A stretch of 63,088 nucleotides of DNA, from the NCBI GenBank assembly GCA_027334165.1, contig DAHWXM010000012.1, forward strand, positions 1 to 63,088, given 5' to 3'. This document shows positions 53,295-62,226 of the stretch, piece by piece. How positions within the stretch are numbered: position 1 is the first letter of the stretch; every line of letters starts with the position of its first letter. Source of the stretch: Microcaldota archaeon (GTDB taxonomy: Archaea; Micrarchaeota; Micrarchaeia; Micrarchaeales; CABMGC01). The position numbers were made by a program, and so were the translations under genes. Below the pieces are notes generated by a model. The model saw only the letters and a program-made list of their open reading frames with translations. It was not told where the DNA came from and did not search any database.

Positions 53295-53372
53295 AAGCAT
53301 TTACCCGAAAGATTAAAGCGCGATAACTTTAATAATTACCTCAAATAAGTTATGTCATTGGATACATCAGCT

Positions 53373-53447
53373 GCTCCTATCGTCTAGTCCGGCCAAGGAC
53401 GTGGGGCTTTCAACCCCGCAACTCGGGTTCAAATCCCGATGGGAGCA
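53373..53447 (+). tRNA. tRNA-Glu(TTC), attachment site of the integrated element
   Basis: Acceptor GCTCCTA (53373-53379) pairs with TGGGAGC (53440-53446), discriminator A at 53447. Anticodon arm TGGGG-CTTTCAA-CCCCG gives anticodon TTC. T-arm CTCGGG-TTCAAAT-CCCGA region is continuous. The 3' part from 53386 is repeated at 60109-60170, and the integrase reading frame begins inside this gene at 53439. Confidence 0.95.
53386..53447 (+). repeat. Left attachment repeat (62 bp, within tRNA-Glu)
   Basis: These 62 bases match 60109-60170 with two differences. They start in the D-arm (AGTCCGGCCAAGGACG) and end exactly with the tRNA discriminator base. The repeat spacing is 6723 bp, which would be the size of the excised circle. 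Confidence 0.93.
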
Positions 53448-54335
53448 ATCGAAATTTACGACGACAAGCTAGGGTTCAAATCTCTAGCCAATGACAAGAA
53501 ATTAAGCAACACACGGTTCGGTTCCATCACGGAGACCGAACCCGAAAAGTTAAAGAAGCACATCAAAGAGGTGCTTCCGAATCTAACCTTCCACGAGATT
53601 AAGGCTGTCTTGTCCTTAATCTACCAAATCAAGAAAAGACGTTACAGAAGCAATGCGCCTCCAAAGTACGGAAGCCTGAACAAAGGCTTCTCTGAACAGG
53701 AGGTGCAGGCGTTCTTCAAGGTAATAGAAAACGACAAGTTTCGCCTATTGTTTGGGTATCAAGCGCAGCTTGGACTCAGGATAGGCGAAGCTGTCAAGGT
53801 AAACGTGAAGGACATCAAGTTCGAGACACGTGAGCTAACCGTGAAAACAGAAAAGGCTCACGTTATAGACACCATGCTTATACCAGTACCATTATTCAAG
53901 CAGACCTTAGAGTTCATAAACCGGAACGAGAAGTCTATAATGCAAGCTGGCGGGTACGTGTTCTTCGCAGAAAAGGGGCATAGCCTTAGGGGCGAGCCCT
54001 ACCTAGAGAAGAACTACGTCCGCAAGGTGTTCAGAGAGTACGTCCAAGCCGCCAAGCTGGACGAGGTCTACGATCAAAGCGAGGAGACCTACGGCAGAAC
54101 ACCCAGAAGGCTGCATAGGCTGACCACGCACAGCCTTAGGCACTATGCAATAACCAGCTTCGCTAGGCAGAATAATGGGAATGTGGTGCTTTCAAGCAGG
54201 TTCGCAAGGCACAGCGATCCAAGCACCACCATGACCTACATAAACACAAGGAAAGACGAGCTTTATAGGGCAGTGGATGAGACCTTCTCGCTAGAGAGGG
54301 CATCCAGCCTCAAAGCCAAGCTTTCCATGCCATAA
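53439..54335 (+). CDS. int: Tyrosine recombinase, C-terminal part Int(C) of an SSV-type split integrase
   Basis: 298 codons from an ATG inside the tRNA 3' end. Catalytic residues: Arg in LGLRIGEAV (about 114), HSLRH (His 231, Arg 234), His 258 in RFARHSDPS, Tyr 267 in MTYIN. In the integrated state, upstream in frame there is TAG at 53385 in the tRNA, so only this part can be made here. The true N-terminus (28 codons) is at 60087-60170; joining the att copies restores one frame of 323 codons. Excision with element circularisation would rebuild the gene with its promoter. Base composition is host-like, unlike the AT-rich genes to the right. Confidence 0.92.
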   Translation: MGAIEIYDDKLGFKSLANDKKLSNTRFGSITETEPEKLKKHIKEVLPNLTFHEIKAVLSLIYQIKKRRYRSNAPPKYGSLNKGFSEQEVQAFFKVIENDKFRLLFGYQAQLGLRIGEAVKVNVKDIKFETRELTVKTEKAHVIDTMLIPVPLFKQTLEFINRNEKSIMQAGGYVFFAEKGHSLRGEPYLEKNYVRKVFREYVQAAKLDEVYDQSEETYGRTPRRLHRLTTHSLRHYAITSFARQNNGNVVLSSRFARHSDPSTTMTYINTRKDELYRAVDETFSLERASSLKAKLSMP

Positions 54336-54343
54336 ATCTAGCA

Positions 54344-54493
54344 TTTCTCTACATGACTTAGGTTTCTCTACATGCCTAAGTCAATCCATGTAGAGAAAAT
54401 CTCCCTCGTAAGCCCTCAAAATAGTGCTGTTTTCTCTCTACACTACTGCACATCAATATTAGAGCCGTCCATGTAGAGTTTCATGTAGAGAAA
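54344..54493. repeat. Array of TTTCTCTACATG repeats in both orientations
   Basis: Exact TTTCTCTACATG at 54344-54355 and 54363-54374; exact complement CATGTAGAGAAA at 54387-54398 and 54482-54493; imperfect copies at about 54431-54443 and 54470-54481. GACTTAGG (54355-54362) and CCTAAGTC (54375-54382) form an inverted repeat around the second copy. It follows the int stop by a few bases. Candidates are integrase arm-type sites, replication iterons, or an operator. Confidence 0.8.
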
Positions 54494-54499
54494 CTCACG

Positions 54500-54740
54500 C
54501 CTACGCAGCCTACGCCCGCCCCTAAGACACCTTCGGTGTCGCTCAGGCGGGCTACGGCTGCTACGGCGGCTGCTTGCAGGACATGGCGGCTCAGGAACTA
54601 CGTCTCTTGTCCAACAAGAGACGCCGATTTTGGGCGGGGGCAAAATCGGCCTTCGGTAGTTCCGTTGCTGGTGGCAGTTTGCAGTCCGTTGGGACGCTAG
54701 CCCACGTGAATCCGAAGGATGAACGTGCTGGCGTAGCTTA
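54500..54740 (+). ncRNA. Strongly folded GC-rich region, candidate non-coding RNA
   Basis: About 240 bases without a credible gene. Stems: CAGCC/GGCTG (54506-54510, 54556-54560) and GCCCGCC/GGCGGGC (54514-54520, 54546-54552) enclosing GACACC/GGTGTC (54526-54531, 54535-54540); GGAACTAC/GTAGTTCC (54594-54601, 54656-54663) enclosing two abutting hairpins, 9 bp (54602-54610 with 54614-54622) and 10 bp (54623-54632 with 54641-54650); GTCC/GGAC (54684-54687, 54692-54695); and a final arm of GCTA-GCC/GGC-TAGC, CACGT/ACGTG and ATCC/GGAT. The last arm has a symmetric GA/GA internal loop, a stable tandem sheared pair only in the plus-strand RNA, so I assign the plus strand. No known RNA class recognised. 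Confidence 0.6.
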
Positions 54741-54796
54741 AGGATTATAGGTCTCCTTACCATAAAACTGATAATTCTTCGCTGCGATATACTACT

Positions 54797-55195
54797 ATGG
54801 CTAGGCGCAAATCCGGAAGCGGGAACGAGATTATAGACCTAATCGGGGCTATAATCGTCTTGCTAGTCATGCTTTGGGTATTCTGGATACTCTTCCATAC
54901 CCAGATAATAGCCTTCTTCACCAACCTGTTGATCGGACTCGTCGAGCTTATCGTACTCGCCCTCATAGTCTTGGCAGGTGGCTATGTGGCATGGGAGCTG
55001 GAAGAAAACAACAACATAACCGCCGGATGGGGGATAGTTGTCGGAATCGCAATATTCATAATACTCTCGGCGCTACGGCTTGGCACGATAGGTGCAGTCA
55101 TAGTGCTTCTGGACATAGGAGCTTTGCTTGCCTTCGCATGGAAGTTTATTGACCAAAACCAGTACGGTATTGACGGTGGATTTTTAGGCCGATAG
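54797..55195 (+). CDS. Small four-helix membrane protein of the element
   Basis: 132 residues. After a basic start (MARRKSGSGNE) there are four hydrophobic helices (IIDLIGAIIVLLVMLWVFWI, IIAFFTNLLIGLVELIVLAL, ITAGWGIVVGIAIFIILSAL, GTIGAVIVLLDIGALLAFAW). No family recognised. It is host-like in composition and lies between the folded RNA region and the defence operon. A membrane partner or effector of the adjoining system is possible but only suggested by position. ATG at 54797 has no strong ribosome site. Confidence 0.7.
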   Translation: MARRKSGSGNEIIDLIGAIIVLLVMLWVFWILFHTQIIAFFTNLLIGLVELIVLALIVLAGGYVAWELEENNNITAGWGIVVGIAIFIILSALRLGTIGAVIVLLDIGALLAFAWKFIDQNQYGIDGGFLGR

Positions 55196-55219
55196 AAAGC
55201 AATATTATCTTGCTGATGA

Positions 55220-55232
55220 ATAATATATAAAG
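55220..55232 (+). promoter_or_regulatory. Promoter of the OLD/type IIG operon
   Basis: ATAATATATAAAG at about 55220-55232 is a good TATA box some 30-40 bases before the ATG at 55262; GGTG lies 8 bases before the start codon. Confidence 0.5.
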
Positions 55233-55261
55233 AAAATACAATAAACTGTAACGGTGCTGTA

Positions 55262-56869
55262 ATGAAGATAAAACGCGTTAATATCACTAATTATAGAAGT
55301 TTGAAAGATATATCAATAGGCGATTTCAACTCCATAAACATTTTAGCAGGAAGGAATGGTTCTGGTAAATCTAATTTACTTGAAGCGTTAGACACCTTTT
55401 TTAGAGAATTTGATCCACCATTGGAAAAACCAGCAGCAGTGCCAGACCATTTATGGTTTAATGAGAATACTAACTTAGAGATAGGGATTGGACTTACGCT
55501 TGCGCTAAATAAAGATGAATTTACTTCTACAAGCACAGAAAACCTTCGTAAGATTATTCCAGATTCGACAGAATATGATGTCTCTATAAAAAGAACTATA
55601 TCAAATCAAGGAAAAAGAGTGTGGAGAACAAATGACCTGTCAGTAAACGAAATGAAAATAATTGATGATAATAAAGTTGCGGCAGACTTCGATACAAAAA
55701 TAAAAGCCATAGATGCAAACCTGAAGCCCGATAATGAAATTTCACAATTCTTAGGTTCTTTAACTACAAGGACAAAAAATAATTTTAGGTTAATAGCACC
55801 TACGAGGGATCAATCAAACCAGTCTGTTACGGCCATAGGTGAACGGAACGCCTTTTTAGATACTGAAACACAGAATTCCATAAGAAATCTTAGCCAGAGC
55901 ACTGCATCAGGTGAAAAAAGAACATGGCGAGAGATAAAAACTAGCTTGCAACAGGTCTTGGATGGTAAAGACCTGGAGGTTTCAAGTAACCAGATATTTC
56001 TAGCTGAGGGCAGCGCAAAATTACCTATTTATCTACATGGCGGTGGGCAACAAGAAGTAGTTGCAATAGTAAGGTATATTGAAGAGCTATCAAGCAAAGG
56101 TGTAACTATATTCGCCATAGAAGAACCAGAAATGCATCTTCATCCACATGCACAAAGACAGTTAATCGAATACTTAAAAAAGAAAGCTAATAACTTTCAA
56201 TTCTTCATTTCTACACACTCGACTACATTCATAAATAAACAAGGAGGGACATATTTAGTTCAAAAGGAAGATACTGAGTCAAGAATATCACAAATTAAAG
56301 ATAAAGACGATCTCAAGAAAGTCATAGTTGAACTAGGTGCGAGACCAAGTGATCTGCTTCTGGCAGATAAAGTTGTCTTCGTTGAAGGAGCTTCGGATAA
56401 GATATTCGTTAGTCGCTGCGCTGAGTTACTGAGTTTGGACTTTGACGAACGTATATCAATAATACCAATGCAGGGCGTAAATAAAGCAAGACATAACTTA
56501 GATTTCTGGATCGAGCTATCTAAGGGTGCGGATATACCTGTTTATGTCATAGCTGACTCTGGAAAACAAACTGATGCTGAGATTAAGGCATTGCTGGACA
56601 AGGGTACCATATCTAAAAACAGCTTCTATAAGCTTGAAAAAGAAGCCATAGAGGAATATTATCCAGCAGAACTAATCAATGAATTTTTGGTATCAATAGG
56701 TGAAACTACAAAAATTAAAGATAGTTTTACTGTAAATGACATAAAATCTAAAGGTGATAAACTACCGAAAATGTGGAAAGTACTACTGGCAGATTATGTT
56801 ACAGAAAGAATCAAAGCAGAACAGGTTCCAGATGAGATAAAGAATATACTATCTGAAATAGTGAAATAA
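55262..56869 (+). CDS. OLD-family ATP-dependent nuclease (AAA ATPase plus TOPRIM)
   Basis: 535 residues. ABC-like ATPase domain: N-terminal MKIKRVNITNYRSLKDISIG, Walker A GRNGSGKSN (about 30-38), Walker B FAIEEPEMHLHP (about 285-296) and FFISTHSTTFINK. The TOPRIM domain follows with VVFVEGASDKIF (about 374-385) and VYVIADSGKQTD. This is the OLD/GajA architecture found in phage-defence nucleases such as P2 Old and Gabija GajA. Here the partner is not a UvrD-like helicase but the restriction-modification enzyme starting one base later. Codon use is strongly AT-rich relative to host genes, a sign of transfer. Confidence 0.9.
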   Translation: MKIKRVNITNYRSLKDISIGDFNSINILAGRNGSGKSNLLEALDTFFREFDPPLEKPAAVPDHLWFNENTNLEIGIGLTLALNKDEFTSTSTENLRKIIPDSTEYDVSIKRTISNQGKRVWRTNDLSVNEMKIIDDNKVAADFDTKIKAIDANLKPDNEISQFLGSLTTRTKNNFRLIAPTRDQSNQSVTAIGERNAFLDTETQNSIRNLSQSTASGEKRTWREIKTSLQQVLDGKDLEVSSNQIFLAEGSAKLPIYLHGGGQQEVVAIVRYIEELSSKGVTIFAIEEPEMHLHPHAQRQLIEYLKKKANNFQFFISTHSTTFINKQGGTYLVQKEDTESRISQIKDKDDLKKVIVELGARPSDLLLADKVVFVEGASDKIFVSRCAELLSLDFDERISIIPMQGVNKARHNLDFWIELSKGADIPVYVIADSGKQTDAEIKALLDKGTISKNSFYKLEKEAIEEYYPAELINEFLVSIGETTKIKDSFTVNDIKSKGDKLPKMWKVLLADYVTERIKAEQVPDEIKNILSEIVK

Positions 56870-59800
56870 TTGGTAATCAATGTGGCTACTAAATCGAATG
56901 TTAGTTTCGTAGACAAAGTCTTACTCGCTTTTAAGAAGATAAATAGCGAAATAACAATAGACTCGCTTGAACATGACTTTAGCCCTAGACTGGCCAAATA
57001 TCTAATAGAGGGAGTTTTGGGATACAGTGGTTCAGATTATACATTTGAGCGGGGCAGAACTGACATAACTTTATTTGATGAGAATAAGAACAGAGTCGTG
57101 GTAATAGAAACAAAGAGGCCAAAGGAGAATTTGGACGCAGAGGAATGGCGCAAACAAGCTGGAAAGTACGCAGATTCAACAACACATTTTATTGGACTCA
57201 CTAATGGTTATAGATTTATCTTGTGGGAAATCAAAGCCGATGAGAAAACTTTAAAATCTGACATAGATTTTAGCGGTCTAATTAATTCAAAGAAAATTAC
57301 AGAGACCAAGCTCTCTACAACAGAGGTCGAACAAATTCTTTTCTTGAACAACATAACAAAAGAGCAAATATGGAGCGAGTCAAAATACGCTATTTTTGAT
57401 CCGTATTACGCTAAAATAGACGTAGCGGAAGATGACGGATTCGGTAAGCTTATTGCACAACTCAATTACATTTCGGATGATATATTACGCCAATATACTT
57501 ATTCTGCGTTTGATGATTATTATGCTAATTATGCCGAATATAAACAATCAAAAAATGAGATAGAAGAGATTAAAAAACACAATGGGGATGATAGAAAGCA
57601 AGCTTCCAAAGTAGCCACATATGAAATGAAGATAGAGGGCAAATATAAAAAGTACTCAACATTCTTAGGTTATTATATATGGAAGGCACTTTCAAACAGG
57701 CCAGACGATAAAGAAGAAGAAAATAAACAAGTTTTCTGTAAGGAATCAATCTACGTACTTATTAACAGACTTCTTTTCATAAGGATATGTGAAGATAAAG
57801 GACTTATTGGTAAGAGAATAATATCAAATGGTGGAGTAGAAAAACTGCGTGATTTACTACATGATGAAGCATTTCCAGATCCAGACCTTGGAGTTTTCAA
57901 GCAAATAGTTTTCAATTTTTCATATGATAGGGGAAATCATCTATACAATCATTTCTATGAAAAGAATAATCCATTAGATTGGTATGAGAGCGGAGACGGA
58001 GAACTTGATAGAGTTCTGAATCGCATTTTGTGGATTCTTAATCAATTTAACTTTTCCAAAGTCGATAGGGACATATTAGGCAAAATTTATGAAAAATATC
58101 TTCCAAAAGAGGAAAGAAAAAGGCTTGGAGAATTTTATACGCCTGATGAAATTATTGACTACATATTAGACGCTGTTGAATACTTACCAAATAAAGCAAT
58201 TGAAAATAAAGATCTGATAGATCCTGCATGCGGATCTGGTGGATTTCTTGTAAGGTCATCAAGGAGACTCATAGCTAGATATGCCGTAAAATTTGATAAG
58301 GCCACACCAAAAGAAGCACTTGATAATAAAAAGTGGAAAGATGTTCTAGAACGACTTACACCGAAAGAATGCGAAGAGATAGTAAATGCTGTTGCGCTTC
58401 ATATACATGGATTTGATATAAATCCGTTTGCAGTTAATATTACTGAAATGAACCTACTTTTTCAGGTAGTAGATCTTTATTTCAAAGCAAATAAGGCAAA
58501 TAGAACCTTTATTGTGCCTAGATTTCAAATATATGGCACAGATTCACTTGAAGTTCCGAATGAACAAGCTAAGATGACACAATTCTATGATGGTTCTGGA
58601 AAGAATATGGCTAAAGATTTAGTTACTATAGAAGAGCTGAAAAAGAAGAAATATGATTTTGTGGTAGGAAACCCACCATATGTCAAAGTCCAAAATCTTG
58701 TGTCAATACAAAAGGATTTGCTAGAAAAATCATTCAAAACTGCAAAAGGCTTGTACGATTTATACACACTGTTTGTTGAGCTAGGCATAAATATGCTTGG
58801 CGATACGGGAAAGTTCGGATATATAATATCTGATAAATTCATACAGCGAGGATATGGAGAACCGTTAAAGGAGATCATAGCAAAAGAAACTTCTATAAAA
58901 GAAATCATTGATTTTGGTGACACTCCTGTTTTTGAAGATGTTACAAATTATCCATTAATCTTGGTACTTTCTAAGCCCAACGATAACACTACAGAAGCAA
59001 AAATAATCAAAATTAAGCAGGCTAAATCAGATATGCTTAAAGAAATATCAAATATAGGTAAGATAACAGAAAACCGATACATAACAGCAAAATTTATCAA
59101 ACACGAAGAATTTGTAAAGGACTGGTCTTTTTCTAATGAAAGACTAAGGAAGATACTGAACGGTCTAGATGGACTGAAAAAGCTTAGTGAATTATGTGAA
59201 TCTATTCAGGTAGGAATTCAAACTGGGAACGATGAATTACTGATATTCAATCAAGAATTTGTTAAAAATGAAATAGACTCCAAATTCCTAAAACCTTATG
59301 TAAAAGGCAGAGATGTTAAAAGGTATTCGACCCCAGAACCTAAAAATTTGGTTTTGTATCCATATATTTTAGATGGAGAAAAGCAAAGACTTATTACGGA
59401 ATCAGAATTAAAACTAAATCCCAAAGTATACAACTATCTAATCGCCCATAAACCAGAACTTCAGAATAGATGGGGCGTAAAGACGTTCTATGATTTGCCT
59501 ACTACTAGGTCTATTGAATGGTTTGAAAAAAGAAAGATACTGACGCCGGATGTATCTGCTCAGCCAAACTTTACTATAATAGATGGTGGAAAATATTTCT
59601 CAAAAGGAAGTTGCTATGGTATAGTCCTAAAACAGAATAAACTTTACGAATTTGTTTTAGGGATACTAAATTCAAAACTTACCTTTGCTATAATTAAAGA
59701 AACTAGTGCACTTTTTTCAGGAGGATACTACCGTTTTACAACGGATTTTATGGAGCCACTACCAATTAAACTACCAATTAACAAAAAAGAGGAAACCATA

Positions 59801-59965
59801 GCAGAAAAAATAACAACATTAGTTAAAGAGATTCTAAAAATGAAAAAGAAAGACGCAAATGCTGATACTAAAAAGCTTGAAGATGATATAGATGGCTTGG
59901 TTTTTGACTTGTATGGCCTGAGCACTGAAGAACGAAAGCTCATAGAGCAAGCTGTAGCTACCTAA
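56870..59965 (+). CDS. Type IIG restriction-modification enzyme (Eco57I-like)
   Basis: Up to 1031 residues. An N-terminal PD-(D/E)xK nuclease is suggested by RTDITLFDENKNRVVVIETKRP (Asp, then E-x-K at about 79-81). The helical middle part is followed by N6-adenine methylase motifs: DPACGSGGFLV (about 450-460), FDINPFAVNITEMNLL, and NPPYVKVQ (about 600). A C-terminal target-recognition region includes KPYVKGRDVKRYSTPEPKN. Cutting, methylation and recognition are thus in one chain. Start TTG 56870, directly after the OLD stop, or GTG 56882 with GGTAAT upstream. AT-rich like its partner. Alternative: a BREX-like methylase, less likely given the nuclease motif. Confidence 0.88.
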   Translation: MVINVATKSNVSFVDKVLLAFKKINSEITIDSLEHDFSPRLAKYLIEGVLGYSGSDYTFERGRTDITLFDENKNRVVVIETKRPKENLDAEEWRKQAGKYADSTTHFIGLTNGYRFILWEIKADEKTLKSDIDFSGLINSKKITETKLSTTEVEQILFLNNITKEQIWSESKYAIFDPYYAKIDVAEDDGFGKLIAQLNYISDDILRQYTYSAFDDYYANYAEYKQSKNEIEEIKKHNGDDRKQASKVATYEMKIEGKYKKYSTFLGYYIWKALSNRPDDKEEENKQVFCKESIYVLINRLLFIRICEDKGLIGKRIISNGGVEKLRDLLHDEAFPDPDLGVFKQIVFNFSYDRGNHLYNHFYEKNNPLDWYESGDGELDRVLNRILWILNQFNFSKVDRDILGKIYEKYLPKEERKRLGEFYTPDEIIDYILDAVEYLPNKAIENKDLIDPACGSGGFLVRSSRRLIARYAVKFDKATPKEALDNKKWKDVLERLTPKECEEIVNAVALHIHGFDINPFAVNITEMNLLFQVVDLYFKANKANRTFIVPRFQIYGTDSLEVPNEQAKMTQFYDGSGKNMAKDLVTIEELKKKKYDFVVGNPPYVKVQNLVSIQKDLLEKSFKTAKGLYDLYTLFVELGINMLGDTGKFGYIISDKFIQRGYGEPLKEIIAKETSIKEIIDFGDTPVFEDVTNYPLILVLSKPNDNTTEAKIIKIKQAKSDMLKEISNIGKITENRYITAKFIKHEEFVKDWSFSNERLRKILNGLDGLKKLSELCESIQVGIQTGNDELLIFNQEFVKNEIDSKFLKPYVKGRDVKRYSTPEPKNLVLYPYILDGEKQRLITESELKLNPKVYNYLIAHKPELQNRWGVKTFYDLPTTRSIEWFEKRKILTPDVSAQPNFTIIDGGKYFSKGSCYGIVLKQNKLYEFVLGILNSKLTFAIIKETSALFSGGYYRFTTDFMEPLPIKLPINKKEETIAEKITTLVKEILKMKKKDANADTKKLEDDIDGLVFDLYGLSTEERKLIEQAVAT

Positions 59966-59970
59966 TTTTA

Positions 59971-59997
59971 GGTTCAGATATTCTGTGAATCTGAACC
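59971..59997 (+). terminator. Stem-loop after the type IIG gene
   Basis: GGTTCAGAT (59971-59979) and ATCTGAACC (59989-59997) form a perfect 9-bp stem with a 9-base loop, 6 bases after the stop codon; likely ends the defence operon or protects its 3' end. Confidence 0.55.
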
Positions 59998-60005
59998 GTG
60001 CCTGC

Positions 60006-60081
60006 TTATATAGCTTGCTTGGGAAATGCTACTGTTCAGAAAGCTTGGAATGTTTGGGTTGGTTTTGTTTGTGTGTAGGTG
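60006..60081 (+). promoter_or_regulatory. Promoter and ribosome site of the split integrase
   Basis: TTATATAG (60006-60013) is a TATA box about 75 bases before the ATG at 60087, and GGTG (60078-60081) is a ribosome site 5 bases before it. In the integrated state this drives only the N-terminal fragment. Confidence 0.5.
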
Positions 60082-60086
60082 CTAGA

Positions 60087-60194
60087 ATGGAGCTAGAAAA
60101 CGACGCTAAGTCCGGCCAAGGACGCGGGGCTTTCAACCCTGCAACTCGGGTTCAAATCCCGATGGGAGCACTCTATCTCTGGGGTTATATATAA
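60087..60194 (+). pseudogene. int: Integrase N-terminal fragment Int(N), split by integration
   Basis: From ATG 60087 the frame reads MELENDAKSGQGRGAFN and continues through the att copy to ATG-GGA-GCA (60162-60170), the same codons that open Int(C) at 53439. Past the junction it runs on for only eight codons to TAA at 60192. Joining 60170 to 53448 gives one continuous integrase. Both base differences between the att copies fall at third positions here (CGT to CGC, CCC to CCT), so the copy has evolved as coding sequence. Not a gene in its own right. Confidence 0.88.
60109..60170 (+). repeat. Right attachment repeat (62 bp copy of tRNA-Glu 3' part)
   Basis: Matches 53386-53447 with two substitutions. 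It lacks the 5' acceptor strand and part of the D-arm, so it is not a tRNA gene. Marks the right end of the element. Confidence 0.93.
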
Positions 60195-60255
60195 CTCGTT
60201 CAAATGTCCCCCCTTCTCTAACATAGTTTTAGCAGATATGGCTAGTACGCTATTT

Positions 60256-61140
60256 TTAGCCTTTTAGTTTATTTATCTTCCACATTATGAATATAATTGA
60301 AATCAACAAACTAAATAATAAAGATAATGAAAGAGTCAATGATCCTAAAAAGGTAAATTGTAGTAGTGACAATTTATTTAAATCAAAAACAGTCCTAGAG
60401 GGTATTTCATTATTAAGTAAATATGCCAAGAGTAATAATGTTATTGAAAGAACACCAAAAGTTTCAGTAAGCGCAAACTGATTAATTATTTCTTTGGCTA
60501 TAACTCTATCGCCTTTAAAAATATTATATATAAAATTGAAAAGTACTGGTACTAAGGCCACAAAAATACCTTCAAATTGTATAAGGAATCCAAATTCAGA
60601 ACTTAAATTATTATTTTTTATAAACAGAACTGCTAAAGCAAGACCTAATATTGCAATTAAAAGCAGCTTTTTATTGCCTACAAGAATTCTTCTAAAGAAA
60701 TTATAAATGAAATAAAGAACTATGGCATAAAACAAATAGAGAGCTAATAGAACTGTTAGTACCGTTGCAGAAATGTAATAATTTAGATGAAAATAAGGTA
60801 ATACATACTCAAAGACAAAGAATGGGAATAATTGCAGGAGCCATATAATGGCAAATAAAAGTATTCTCAAAGCAAAATTTTGCCACTTTTCATTATAAAA
60901 AGAATATAAGTTCTCTCTATATTTTATTATATATGCAATAAATGGGAGGAATACCAAAACAGCATAGCCGTAATATGAGTAATTTCCAAAAATAAGAATC
61001 TCGTTACTTAATAAATACCCAAAAACGAAAAGTAATACAAACTCAACCCCTAATACACCCAAATAGATTAGAAATAATTTCTTAAGACCTTTTAATTTTT
61101 TACCGTCTTTCTCTGTTGCACTCATGTTTTCTTCTTTCAT
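60256..61140 (-). CDS. AT-rich multi-pass membrane protein, unknown
   Basis: 294 residues with seven or eight hydrophobic helices (LFLIYLGVLGVEFVLLFVFG, AVLVFLPFIAYII, FALRILLFAIIWLLQLFPFF, TVLTVLLALYLFYAIVLYFI, LLLIAILGLALAVLFI, ending LSLLFSLLISIIFIMWKI). Charged cytosolic start. No motif recognised. Codon use is very AT-rich compared with the host genes, pointing to foreign origin. Just outside the right att repeat; followed on the same strand by two more AT-rich genes upstream in transcription order (61149, 61402). Confidence 0.65.
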   Translation of the reverse strand: MKEENMSATEKDGKKLKGLKKLFLIYLGVLGVEFVLLFVFGYLLSNEILIFGNYSYYGYAVLVFLPFIAYIIKYRENLYSFYNEKWQNFALRILLFAIIWLLQLFPFFVFEYVLPYFHLNYYISATVLTVLLALYLFYAIVLYFIYNFFRRILVGNKKLLLIAILGLALAVLFIKNNNLSSEFGFLIQFEGIFVALVPVLFNFIYNIFKGDRVIAKEIINQFALTETFGVLSITLLLLAYLLNNEIPSRTVFDLNKLSLLQFTFLGSLTLSLSLLFSLLISIIFIMWKINKLKG

Positions 61141-61148
61141 CTTATCAC

Positions 61149-61409
61149 TTATGAATAAAACCTTTTTCCCCTTTCAGCCATCCATTTAGCCCCTCTAGGC
61201 CACAGCCAAATCAGCCCTAACGCAAAGAACACCGCACCTACTATTACGCCCACAAGAAACCAAAATATGCCTGAGAACAAGAAACCAAAGTCAGAAACGT
61301 TTGAAACTGCTTTATGATAGCTGTTAAGGTAAGTTATGTAAGATAAGATAAAAAGTACTAGAGCTATTATTATGAAAACTGAACCGATAATTTGTTTTGG
61401 TTTAGGCAT
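61149..61409 (-). CDS. Small two-helix membrane protein, unknown
   Basis: 86 residues, two hydrophobic helices (IIGSVFIIIALVLFILSYI and IFWFLVGVIVGAVFFALGLIWLW) with a positively charged C-terminal end (RGAKWMAERGKRF). Its start overlaps the end of the gene at 61402 by 8 bases, and it precedes the larger membrane protein by 8 bases, so the three form an operon. No family recognised. Confidence 0.6.
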   Translation of the reverse strand: MPKPKQIIGSVFIIIALVLFILSYITYLNSYHKAVSNVSDFGFLFSGIFWFLVGVIVGAVFFALGLIWLWPRGAKWMAERGKRFYS

Positions 61410-62226
61410 TAAATCGCATTGTATACTTTAGCTTATTTATGGTTTTCTTCTTTAATACTATCCCCTTTCCTTGCTTTACCTTCTTTTTCAGCCTGAATAA
61501 GTGCCTTTTCGATAATCCAATGTGTCTAGCGTCTTTCGTTGTCATACTCTTGATAACATCCGCTATCTTTTGCTCGGTTTTGTTATCATAAACAACGTAA
61601 TCATTATCTGAAACACCGATAACTTCGCTCTCTTCAAGATTGTTAGATTCTTTGCCTATGTGTTCTATGTCGTTGATAACAACTTGTTTCCTTTTCAACT
61701 CTCCAAGCTTGCCGTCGTACTTGCCGTCGTTATGATCCGCATAAGCAAACAAGAACTCTGCTAGCTGTTTCCAGTAGAACTTTGTGTTATCTGTATATTC
61801 TTTGCCCGTTTTGTAATCAGTAAATCGAGTAAATGGCACAATATCTGTATCTTTGGTATAAGCAAGGAGAGGAATTATCGGTTCTTTGGTCGATGGGTCT
61901 ATCTTATGTCCTATGCCGACGATAACAAAGTTGAATGGCTTTAGCTGTTTATCCTTATTTGTACGCCTAAAACGTTGCATGATAAAAGGCGAGGTTAAAG
62001 CGAGCTTGCCCATCACGAACTTGTTTGCGTACCTATGTTCTATCGCCTCTTTCGATAACGTGCCGTAATGATAGCTGAGAAAATCGTGCCAAATCTGTGT
62101 TATCTCGTCCTCGCTTATTCCAATCAAACCGCCCAACCCATGAGAAGAGTGCTTGAGGATGTTGATTTTGTTATCCACCATGCGATACAAACAGTACCTT
62201 TTTTCAGATCTTCCATAAAATTGCAC
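61402..62226 (-). CDS. Unrecognised AT-rich protein with C-terminal HTH-like segment
   Basis: 274 residues from GTG 62226, or about 259 from ATG 62181 (MVDNKINILK). The C-terminal part (IADVIKSMTTKDARHIGLSKRHLFRLKKKVKQGK ... KKKTINKL) looks like a helix-turn-helix followed by a basic helix, so DNA binding is possible. The middle (FNFVIVGIGHKIDPSTKEPIIPLLAYTKDTDIVPFTRFTDY) is not recognised. First gene of the AT-rich operon. It may be a regulator or replication protein of a mobile element; this is a guess from context. Confidence 0.6.
   Translation of the reverse strand: MQFYGRSEKRYCLYRMVDNKINILKHSSHGLGGLIGISEDEITQIWHDFLSYHYGTLSKEAIEHRYANKFVMGKLALTSPFIMQRFRRTNKDKQLKPFNFVIVGIGHKIDPSTKEPIIPLLAYTKDTDIVPFTRFTDYKTGKEYTDNTKFYWKQLAEFLFAYADHNDGKYDGKLGELKRKQVVINDIEHIGKESNNLEESEVIGVSDNDYVVYDNKTEQKIADVIKSMTTKDARHIGLSKRHLFRLKKKVKQGKGIVLKKKTINKLKYTMRFNA

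Follow-up and report, generated by a model that had tools for sequence, protein, structure and literature searches.

Some archaeal tyrosine recombinases split their own gene when the element that encodes them integrates. In these suicidal (type I) integrases of SSV viruses, pTN3, and pT26-2, the attachment site of the element (attP) lies within the integrase gene, the 3' half of a tRNA gene is the target, the attachment (att) sequence is translated as part of the protein, and related enzymes use many tRNAs. They are considered to have a single origin and to carry PF16795, and the SSV1 enzyme has the signature R...KxxR...Y (2021 review of archaeal tyrosine recombinases, PMC8371274). The same gene arrangement, translated att, and range of tRNA targets recur with a 6723-bp element in tRNA-Glu(TTC) of a Micrarchaeota archaeon, described here from 63,088 nucleotides of contig DAHWXM010000012.1 (GenBank assembly GCA_027334165.1, forward strand; contig C20 of an 816-kb genome, 83% complete), hereafter the window. 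Judging from the sequence, the integrase gene is split by the element's own integration, and the enzyme lies outside the SSV family. The element belongs to a large family, apparently undescribed, whose cargo includes anti-virus genes; no literature on such elements in Micrarchaeota or DPANN archaea was found among open-access papers.

Archaeal XerA/Xer recombinases share PF00589, the HxxR motif, and the nearest solved fold and sequence (5hxy, 4a8e) with the Micrarchaeota integrase. Xer is encoded by an intact gene and resolves chromosome dimers at dif, whereas the Micrarchaeota enzyme has tRNA targets and its site lies within the integrase gene itself; the split gene at a tRNA, the variable presence, and the horizontal spread do not agree with a Xer housekeeping role. 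Tycheposons and other bacterial tRNA-targeting cargo elements likewise combine a tyrosine recombinase with variable cargo at tRNA genes; to our knowledge, they have neither a split integrase gene nor a common non-coding block of the kind described below. Cryptic integrated elements of Thaumarchaeota are similar in having the integrase as common gene and varied cargo including restriction-modification genes, and one of them has a split SSV1-like integrase; they differ in their larger size (median 17 kb), diverse replication genes, and integrases of several families (PMC6563490).

The tRNA-Glu locus and the integrase frame

The element is flanked by the 3' part of tRNA-Glu(TTC), 53386-53447 (attL), and by a 62-bp copy at 60109-60170; the two att copies are 96.8% identical over 62 nt (2/62 positions differ). 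The target gene was recognised by ARAGORN at 53372-53448 (forward strand, as are all features below unless stated). Taken as a direct repeat of 53386-53450 and 60109-60173 (attR), identity is 95% over 65 nt, with a start-to-start distance of 6723. The open reading frame (ORF) of Int(C), the core-binding and catalytic part of a tyrosine recombinase (53439-54335, 298 aa; assigned by PF00589, alignment A1, and an AF2 model), has its ATG at 53439, within the T-arm/acceptor part of the tRNA. Position 60162 in the far att corresponds to 53439, and 60087-60161 joined to 53439-54332 gives a single open frame of 323 codons. The part ahead of the Int(C) ATG, Int(N) (60087-60161), is recognised from this joined frame and from relatives; it starts with ATG and has 25 codons, 8 of them unique and outside the att copy and the remainder att-encoded.

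The expression signals of the integrase lie at the same far end. The TATA box of its promoter, CTTATATA (60005-60012), is kept in 16 aligned elements, and a Shine-Dalgarno (SD)-like GGTG precedes the start codon at 60078-60081 (GTG invariant; GGTG in 14/16 aligned elements), so that promoter, SD, ATG, and 25 integrase codons are all found within 60005-60161, far from the catalytic ORF. An inverted repeat, GGTTCAGAT...ATCTGAACC (59971-59997, no strand assigned), lies 5' of the promoter and is conserved in alignment A2; its consensus is GGTTCRGAT..ATCYGAACC, both arms change in step in the Val and Gln elements, and a third half-site, GTTCAGA, is located at 60034-60040.

A sequence-only reading of the window had proposed an integrative element in tRNA-Glu of a putative Micrarchaeota chromosome, its integrase split by its own integration. 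The tRNA-Glu repeat and its spacing, the catalytic frame opening inside the tRNA, the frame continuous through att, and the TATA box and ribosome site at the far end all stand, the last conserved in relatives; the missing codons number 25 rather than the 28 given. The host assignment agrees with the named integrase relatives, and the split is borne out by the joined frame and by 22 of 23 relatives (see below). Two further integrase copies are present in the window's genome, both at contig ends.

That reading had also looked to a related genome with an empty tRNA-Glu, and one was found. To the left of tRNA-Glu lies a conserved dTMP kinase gene. In G002 (locus L138), from the same genus, kinase and tRNA-Glu directly adjoin GGGGTTATATATA...CATAGTTTTAGCA, which the window has 3' of attR (match of 87% over 55 nt, E 1.5e-12); an empty-site allele is thus present in this genus. 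An unoccupied tRNA-Glu also stands next to the kinase in G005, G007, and G010, and the site is free in L137, L140, and L141; it is occupied in G001 and G003, and G012 and G022 have broken integrases there. In the G038/G052 genus, a synteny check placed the flanking genes at other loci.

The right-flank sequence of the window also occurs 3' of attR at tRNA-Glu(CTC) in G005, and in L059; it is therefore likely to be the end of another element type using tRNA-Glu. The region right of attR, 60171-62226, is AT-rich, with three reverse-strand ORFs (294, 86, and 274 aa). Copies of its first ~55-70 nt follow tRNA-Glu or attR in L043, L059, and L138, and L043 also has part of the 274-aa ORF (83%). A second kind of element using this tRNA probably ends here.

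Integrase protein, relatives, and targets

Int(C) matches Phage_integrase (PF00589) over residues 85-272 with E 6.8e-13; the catalytic R, HxxR, and Y are invariant, as is HSLR in alignment A1. The match is wholly inside Int(C), and joining Int(N) adds no match length, so the better integrase alignment anticipated for the joined frame was not obtained. PF16795 (Phage_integr_3) gave no match to this integrase family even at E 10, and exceeded its cut-off in 0/60 genomes. SSV1 Int, run as control, showed the opposite pattern (PF16795 207 bits, PF00589 none), and profile comparison with SSV1 Int by hhalign returned a probability of 0.2%. Foldseek with the AF2 model placed XerA (5hxy, 4a8e) nearest, with integron IntI and XerH also among the nearest structures. 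The enzyme is thus assigned outside the SSV family, with XerA nearest in predicted structure, the SSV side of this comparison being represented by SSV1 Int and PF16795. Of the label 'SSV-type' used in the sequence-only reading, the self-splitting behaviour holds and the protein family does not.

The position of att differs as well. In SSV1, ~63 codons and a folded domain precede the annotated att; here only 8 codons come before it, so that promoter and start codon, rather than a folded domain, would be separated on integration. In the AF2 model, residues 1-30 of Int(C), which are partly att-encoded, are disordered, and the protein is folded from residue 34. Locus L078 reads its tRNA-Glu att in a frame differing from that of other Glu elements; together with the predicted disorder, this suggests that the att-encoded stretch behaves as a linker. 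L078:3058-4889 is the smallest Glu element (1.8 kb).

Among 295 sampled genomes of the phylum Micrarchaeota, the integrase was present in 103, spread over families f1 and f2 (the window's order) and f7 and f17 (the window's class). Integrase relatives are encoded at 167 loci, and the best 80 of these 167 are nearly all from Micrarchaeota metagenome-assembled genomes (MAGs), a few being labelled Marsarchaeota or bacterium. At most loci Int overlaps a same-strand tRNA, for Glu, Gln, Leu, Val, Ala, Lys, Pro, or Arg; tRNA hits of ~104-113 nt called Ser, Tyr, or Asn are intron-like and of uncertain isotype. The tRNA target tracks integrase clades (20 changes, against a shuffled mean of 54). Unlike SSV, pTN3, and pT26-2, the elements (1.8-9 kb) lack virus genes and were found here only in the Micrarchaeota class.

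For 23 complete relatives, at tRNA-Glu, Gln, Leu, Val, Ala, Lys, Pro, and others, a second copy of the tRNA 3' part is located 1.8-9.1 kb downstream; several further elements are cut off by the ends of MAG contigs. The far att is preceded by an Int(N) in the Int(C) frame, led by an ATG, in 22/23, at no more than 35 codons upstream in 20/23, against an ATG in 2/23 and 0/23 for the other two frames, the 23 elements sharing ancestry and not being independent trials. Int(N) reads M(E/K)LE.. in elements at tRNA-Glu, Gln, Val, or Pro, and MARNIGVKQL.. in those at tRNA-Leu; the DNA just 3' of the ATG, GCTAGRA, is identical in both types and read in different frames. Joined remnants of Int(N), att, and the start of Int(C) lie 3' of the far att at L065:8204-8360 and L067:13373-13490, as expected of what tandem insertion would leave.

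Int(C) of the window and of L054 are 94% identical, whereas the dTMP kinases of these genomes, which belong to different families, are 27% identical; this comparison shows horizontal spread of the element family. Among eight close copies, integrase dN/dS (nonsynonymous to synonymous substitution rate ratio) is 0.06-0.10, a pattern that shows purifying selection and is expected of a gene that, once joined, is at work between integrations. Int(C) is often broken (e.g., L065, G022, G012, G030), in L065 by an IS110-like transposase gene that interrupts it; such copies fit a gene that is without function after integration.

Several loci depart from the common arrangement. A related integrase clade (L085, L094, L096, L099, L118) has conserved upstream sequence without a recognised tRNA and may have another target or be a conventional integrase. 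At L056:9980-10060, Int is accompanied by the att core from the anticodon loop on, without a tRNA 5' half upstream, for which off-target integration or rearrangement is possible. At L070:9845-10100, Int adjoins an apparent degenerate tRNA-Gln copy, and another tRNA-Gln match occurs elsewhere in the same genome.

Non-coding block and cargo

Behind Int(C), a shared non-coding block (54340-54760) is conserved across tRNA targets and consists of iterons, the box ACTGCACATCAATATTA, and hairpins from ~54490. Iterons TCTCTACATG lie at 54346 and 54365 on the forward strand and at 54387, 54470, and 54482 on the reverse strand; their count exceeds that of all 100 shuffles. The 410-bp block is common to Glu, Leu, Val, and Ala elements with 70% mean column identity, traces being found in Gln and Pro elements, and its matches in other genomes are mostly near integrase or Int(N) hits. 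Folding is strong on both strands (z -5.3 and -5.6), and 11 pairs have changes on both sides (column-shuffled control, z -24). One hairpin carries a G-rich loop in seven elements and a C-rich loop in six, and GT and AC mismatches are similarly frequent on both strands. A search of Rfam returned no match to the block other than a below-threshold chance miRNA hit. The block could act as DNA (origin or transfer site) or as RNA.

Cargo occupies the interval between the block and the integrase promoter. A 132-aa hydrophobic protein of no family (54797-55195; no Pfam, PHROG, or PADLOC match) is followed by an OLD-like nuclease of 535 aa (55262-56869; AAA_15, PF13175 3e-31, and OLD-type TOPRIM, PF20469 1e-9; AriA/GajA/Old models), and by a type IIG restriction enzyme-methyltransferase of Eco57I-like type, 1031 aa (56870-59965; PF07669 1e-32; REase_MTase_IIG 6e-61). 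The nuclease and methylase pair named from the letters alone is thus recovered with Pfam and defence models. Copies of both genes stand beside related integrases, at 92% identity in L060 for the nuclease and 69% in L056 for the type IIG enzyme.

In an all-against-all ORF comparison of the 23 elements, the integrase formed the one widespread cluster and is the sole protein common to nearly all of them; other clusters had at most three members. These clusters show turnover of cargo between elements. Restriction-modification cargo of relatives is of BsuBI/PstI, DpnI, DpnII, or Eco57I type; other cargo comprises AIPR/AbiU, a Schlafen-group-3 helicase, cation efflux (metal efflux), hydrolase, oxidoreductase, and LemA genes, and L054 has a ParA-like ATPase gene. 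No virion gene was found among the larger ORFs of the window (all assigned or without PHROG match), in keeping with the sequence-only reading, nor in the annotated cargo of relatives. No replication gene was recognised, and no Rep or partition gene is common to the 23 elements.

Proposed cycle, alternatives, and meaning

We consider it highly probable that the window holds an integrated copy of a small circular modular cargo element whose integrase is switched off on integration. In the circle, the order would be promoter, start codon, 8 codons, attP, catalytic integrase, iteron/hairpin block, and cargo, where attP duplicates the 3' half of tRNA-Glu and contributes to the translated integrase. 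The integrase would recombine attP with tRNA-Glu, and the element would then restore the tRNA 3' end; promoter, SD, and start codon would end up beyond the cargo, 6.7 kb from the catalytic ORF. Normal expression of the integrase would thereby be switched off, with nearly all of the folded protein left in one piece, and excision would need integrase supplied by another copy or a tandem copy, or transcripts that read through from the tRNA. The family keeps its integrase and non-coding block and swaps the cargo that lies between the two gene parts. Circular form, recombination event, loss of expression, role of the block, and source of replication or transfer are inferred in this proposal.

Several results weigh against it. 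No relative was found in IMG/VR (searched with the integrase, alignment A4, and the non-coding-block box), INPHARED, or PLSDB, and therefore no free or viral form is known; a complete joined integrase gene was likewise absent from the collections searched. Some Int copies overlap no recognised tRNA. The kinase of L138, the empty-site locus, is only 55% identical to that of the window, and its matched right flank extends over only 55 nt. Inactivation may also be incomplete, since the window's own Int(C) retains an in-frame ATG and almost all of the folded parts. The same two features, the folded parts as modelled, favour a promoter swap, in which the tRNA-Glu promoter would drive transcription of Int(C) and translation would start with the ATG at 53439, the element excising itself, and expression of pTN3 Int(C) from a tRNA promoter has been proposed previously. 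In relatives, however, the codon at 53439 reads M, K, V, or I and is thus not conserved, and several Int(C) copies are broken, so that we judge self-excision by this route unlikely. The Int(C) start codon was rejected as general evidence of re-expression, the start not being conserved in relatives.

Membership of the element in the SSV/pTN3/pT26-2 family, as a satellite of an SSV-like virus, is suggested by the shared logic of attP in the 5' part of the integrase gene, a tRNA 3'-half target, and a split gene; PF00589 in place of PF16795 with SSV1 giving the reverse, HxxR in place of the SSV1 KxxR, the negligible hhalign probability, 8 codons before att instead of ~63 with a folded N-terminal domain, and the lack of any SSV-like gene in the element make this very improbable. 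A replicating plasmid, with the iteron/hairpin block as origin and Rep from the host or another element, is favoured by several features: iterons are both direct and inverted, an AT-rich conserved box stands beside inverted repeats, and L054 has its ParA-like gene. Against it, the 23 elements have no common Rep or partition gene, the block also folds strongly as RNA, and pair types fail to separate DNA from RNA; we lean slightly away from this explanation while taking it seriously. The window copy might also be a stranded relic that no longer moves, as the two differences between its att copies and the many broken Int(C) genes of relatives would allow, but its Int(C), promoter, and Int(N) are intact, and close copies are under purifying selection and have spread recently, which leaves a relic rather doubtful.

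For a cargo element with an integrase switched off on integration, the wider consequence concerns the origin of the splitting itself. A family with PF00589 does not fit the single-origin view (PMC8371274), and the trick can therefore be compared between two lineages; since only 8 codons precede att and Int(C) retains the folded protein, the split points to control of expression and not to breakage of the enzyme. We find it reasonably likely that archaea evolved self-splitting integrases two or more times: in addition to the PF16795 lineage, an independent XerA-like PF00589 lineage in Micrarchaeota would have moved a tRNA att to the extreme 5' end of its gene, integration then cutting off promoter and start codon, and would have founded cargo elements free of replication genes, held together by the integrase and a conserved iteron/hairpin block, an origin or an RNA that would be served in trans. 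The family also provides genome-reduced Micrarchaeota with a common vehicle of gene exchange for restriction-modification and other accessory genes, and it offers a common non-coding block with a testable function.

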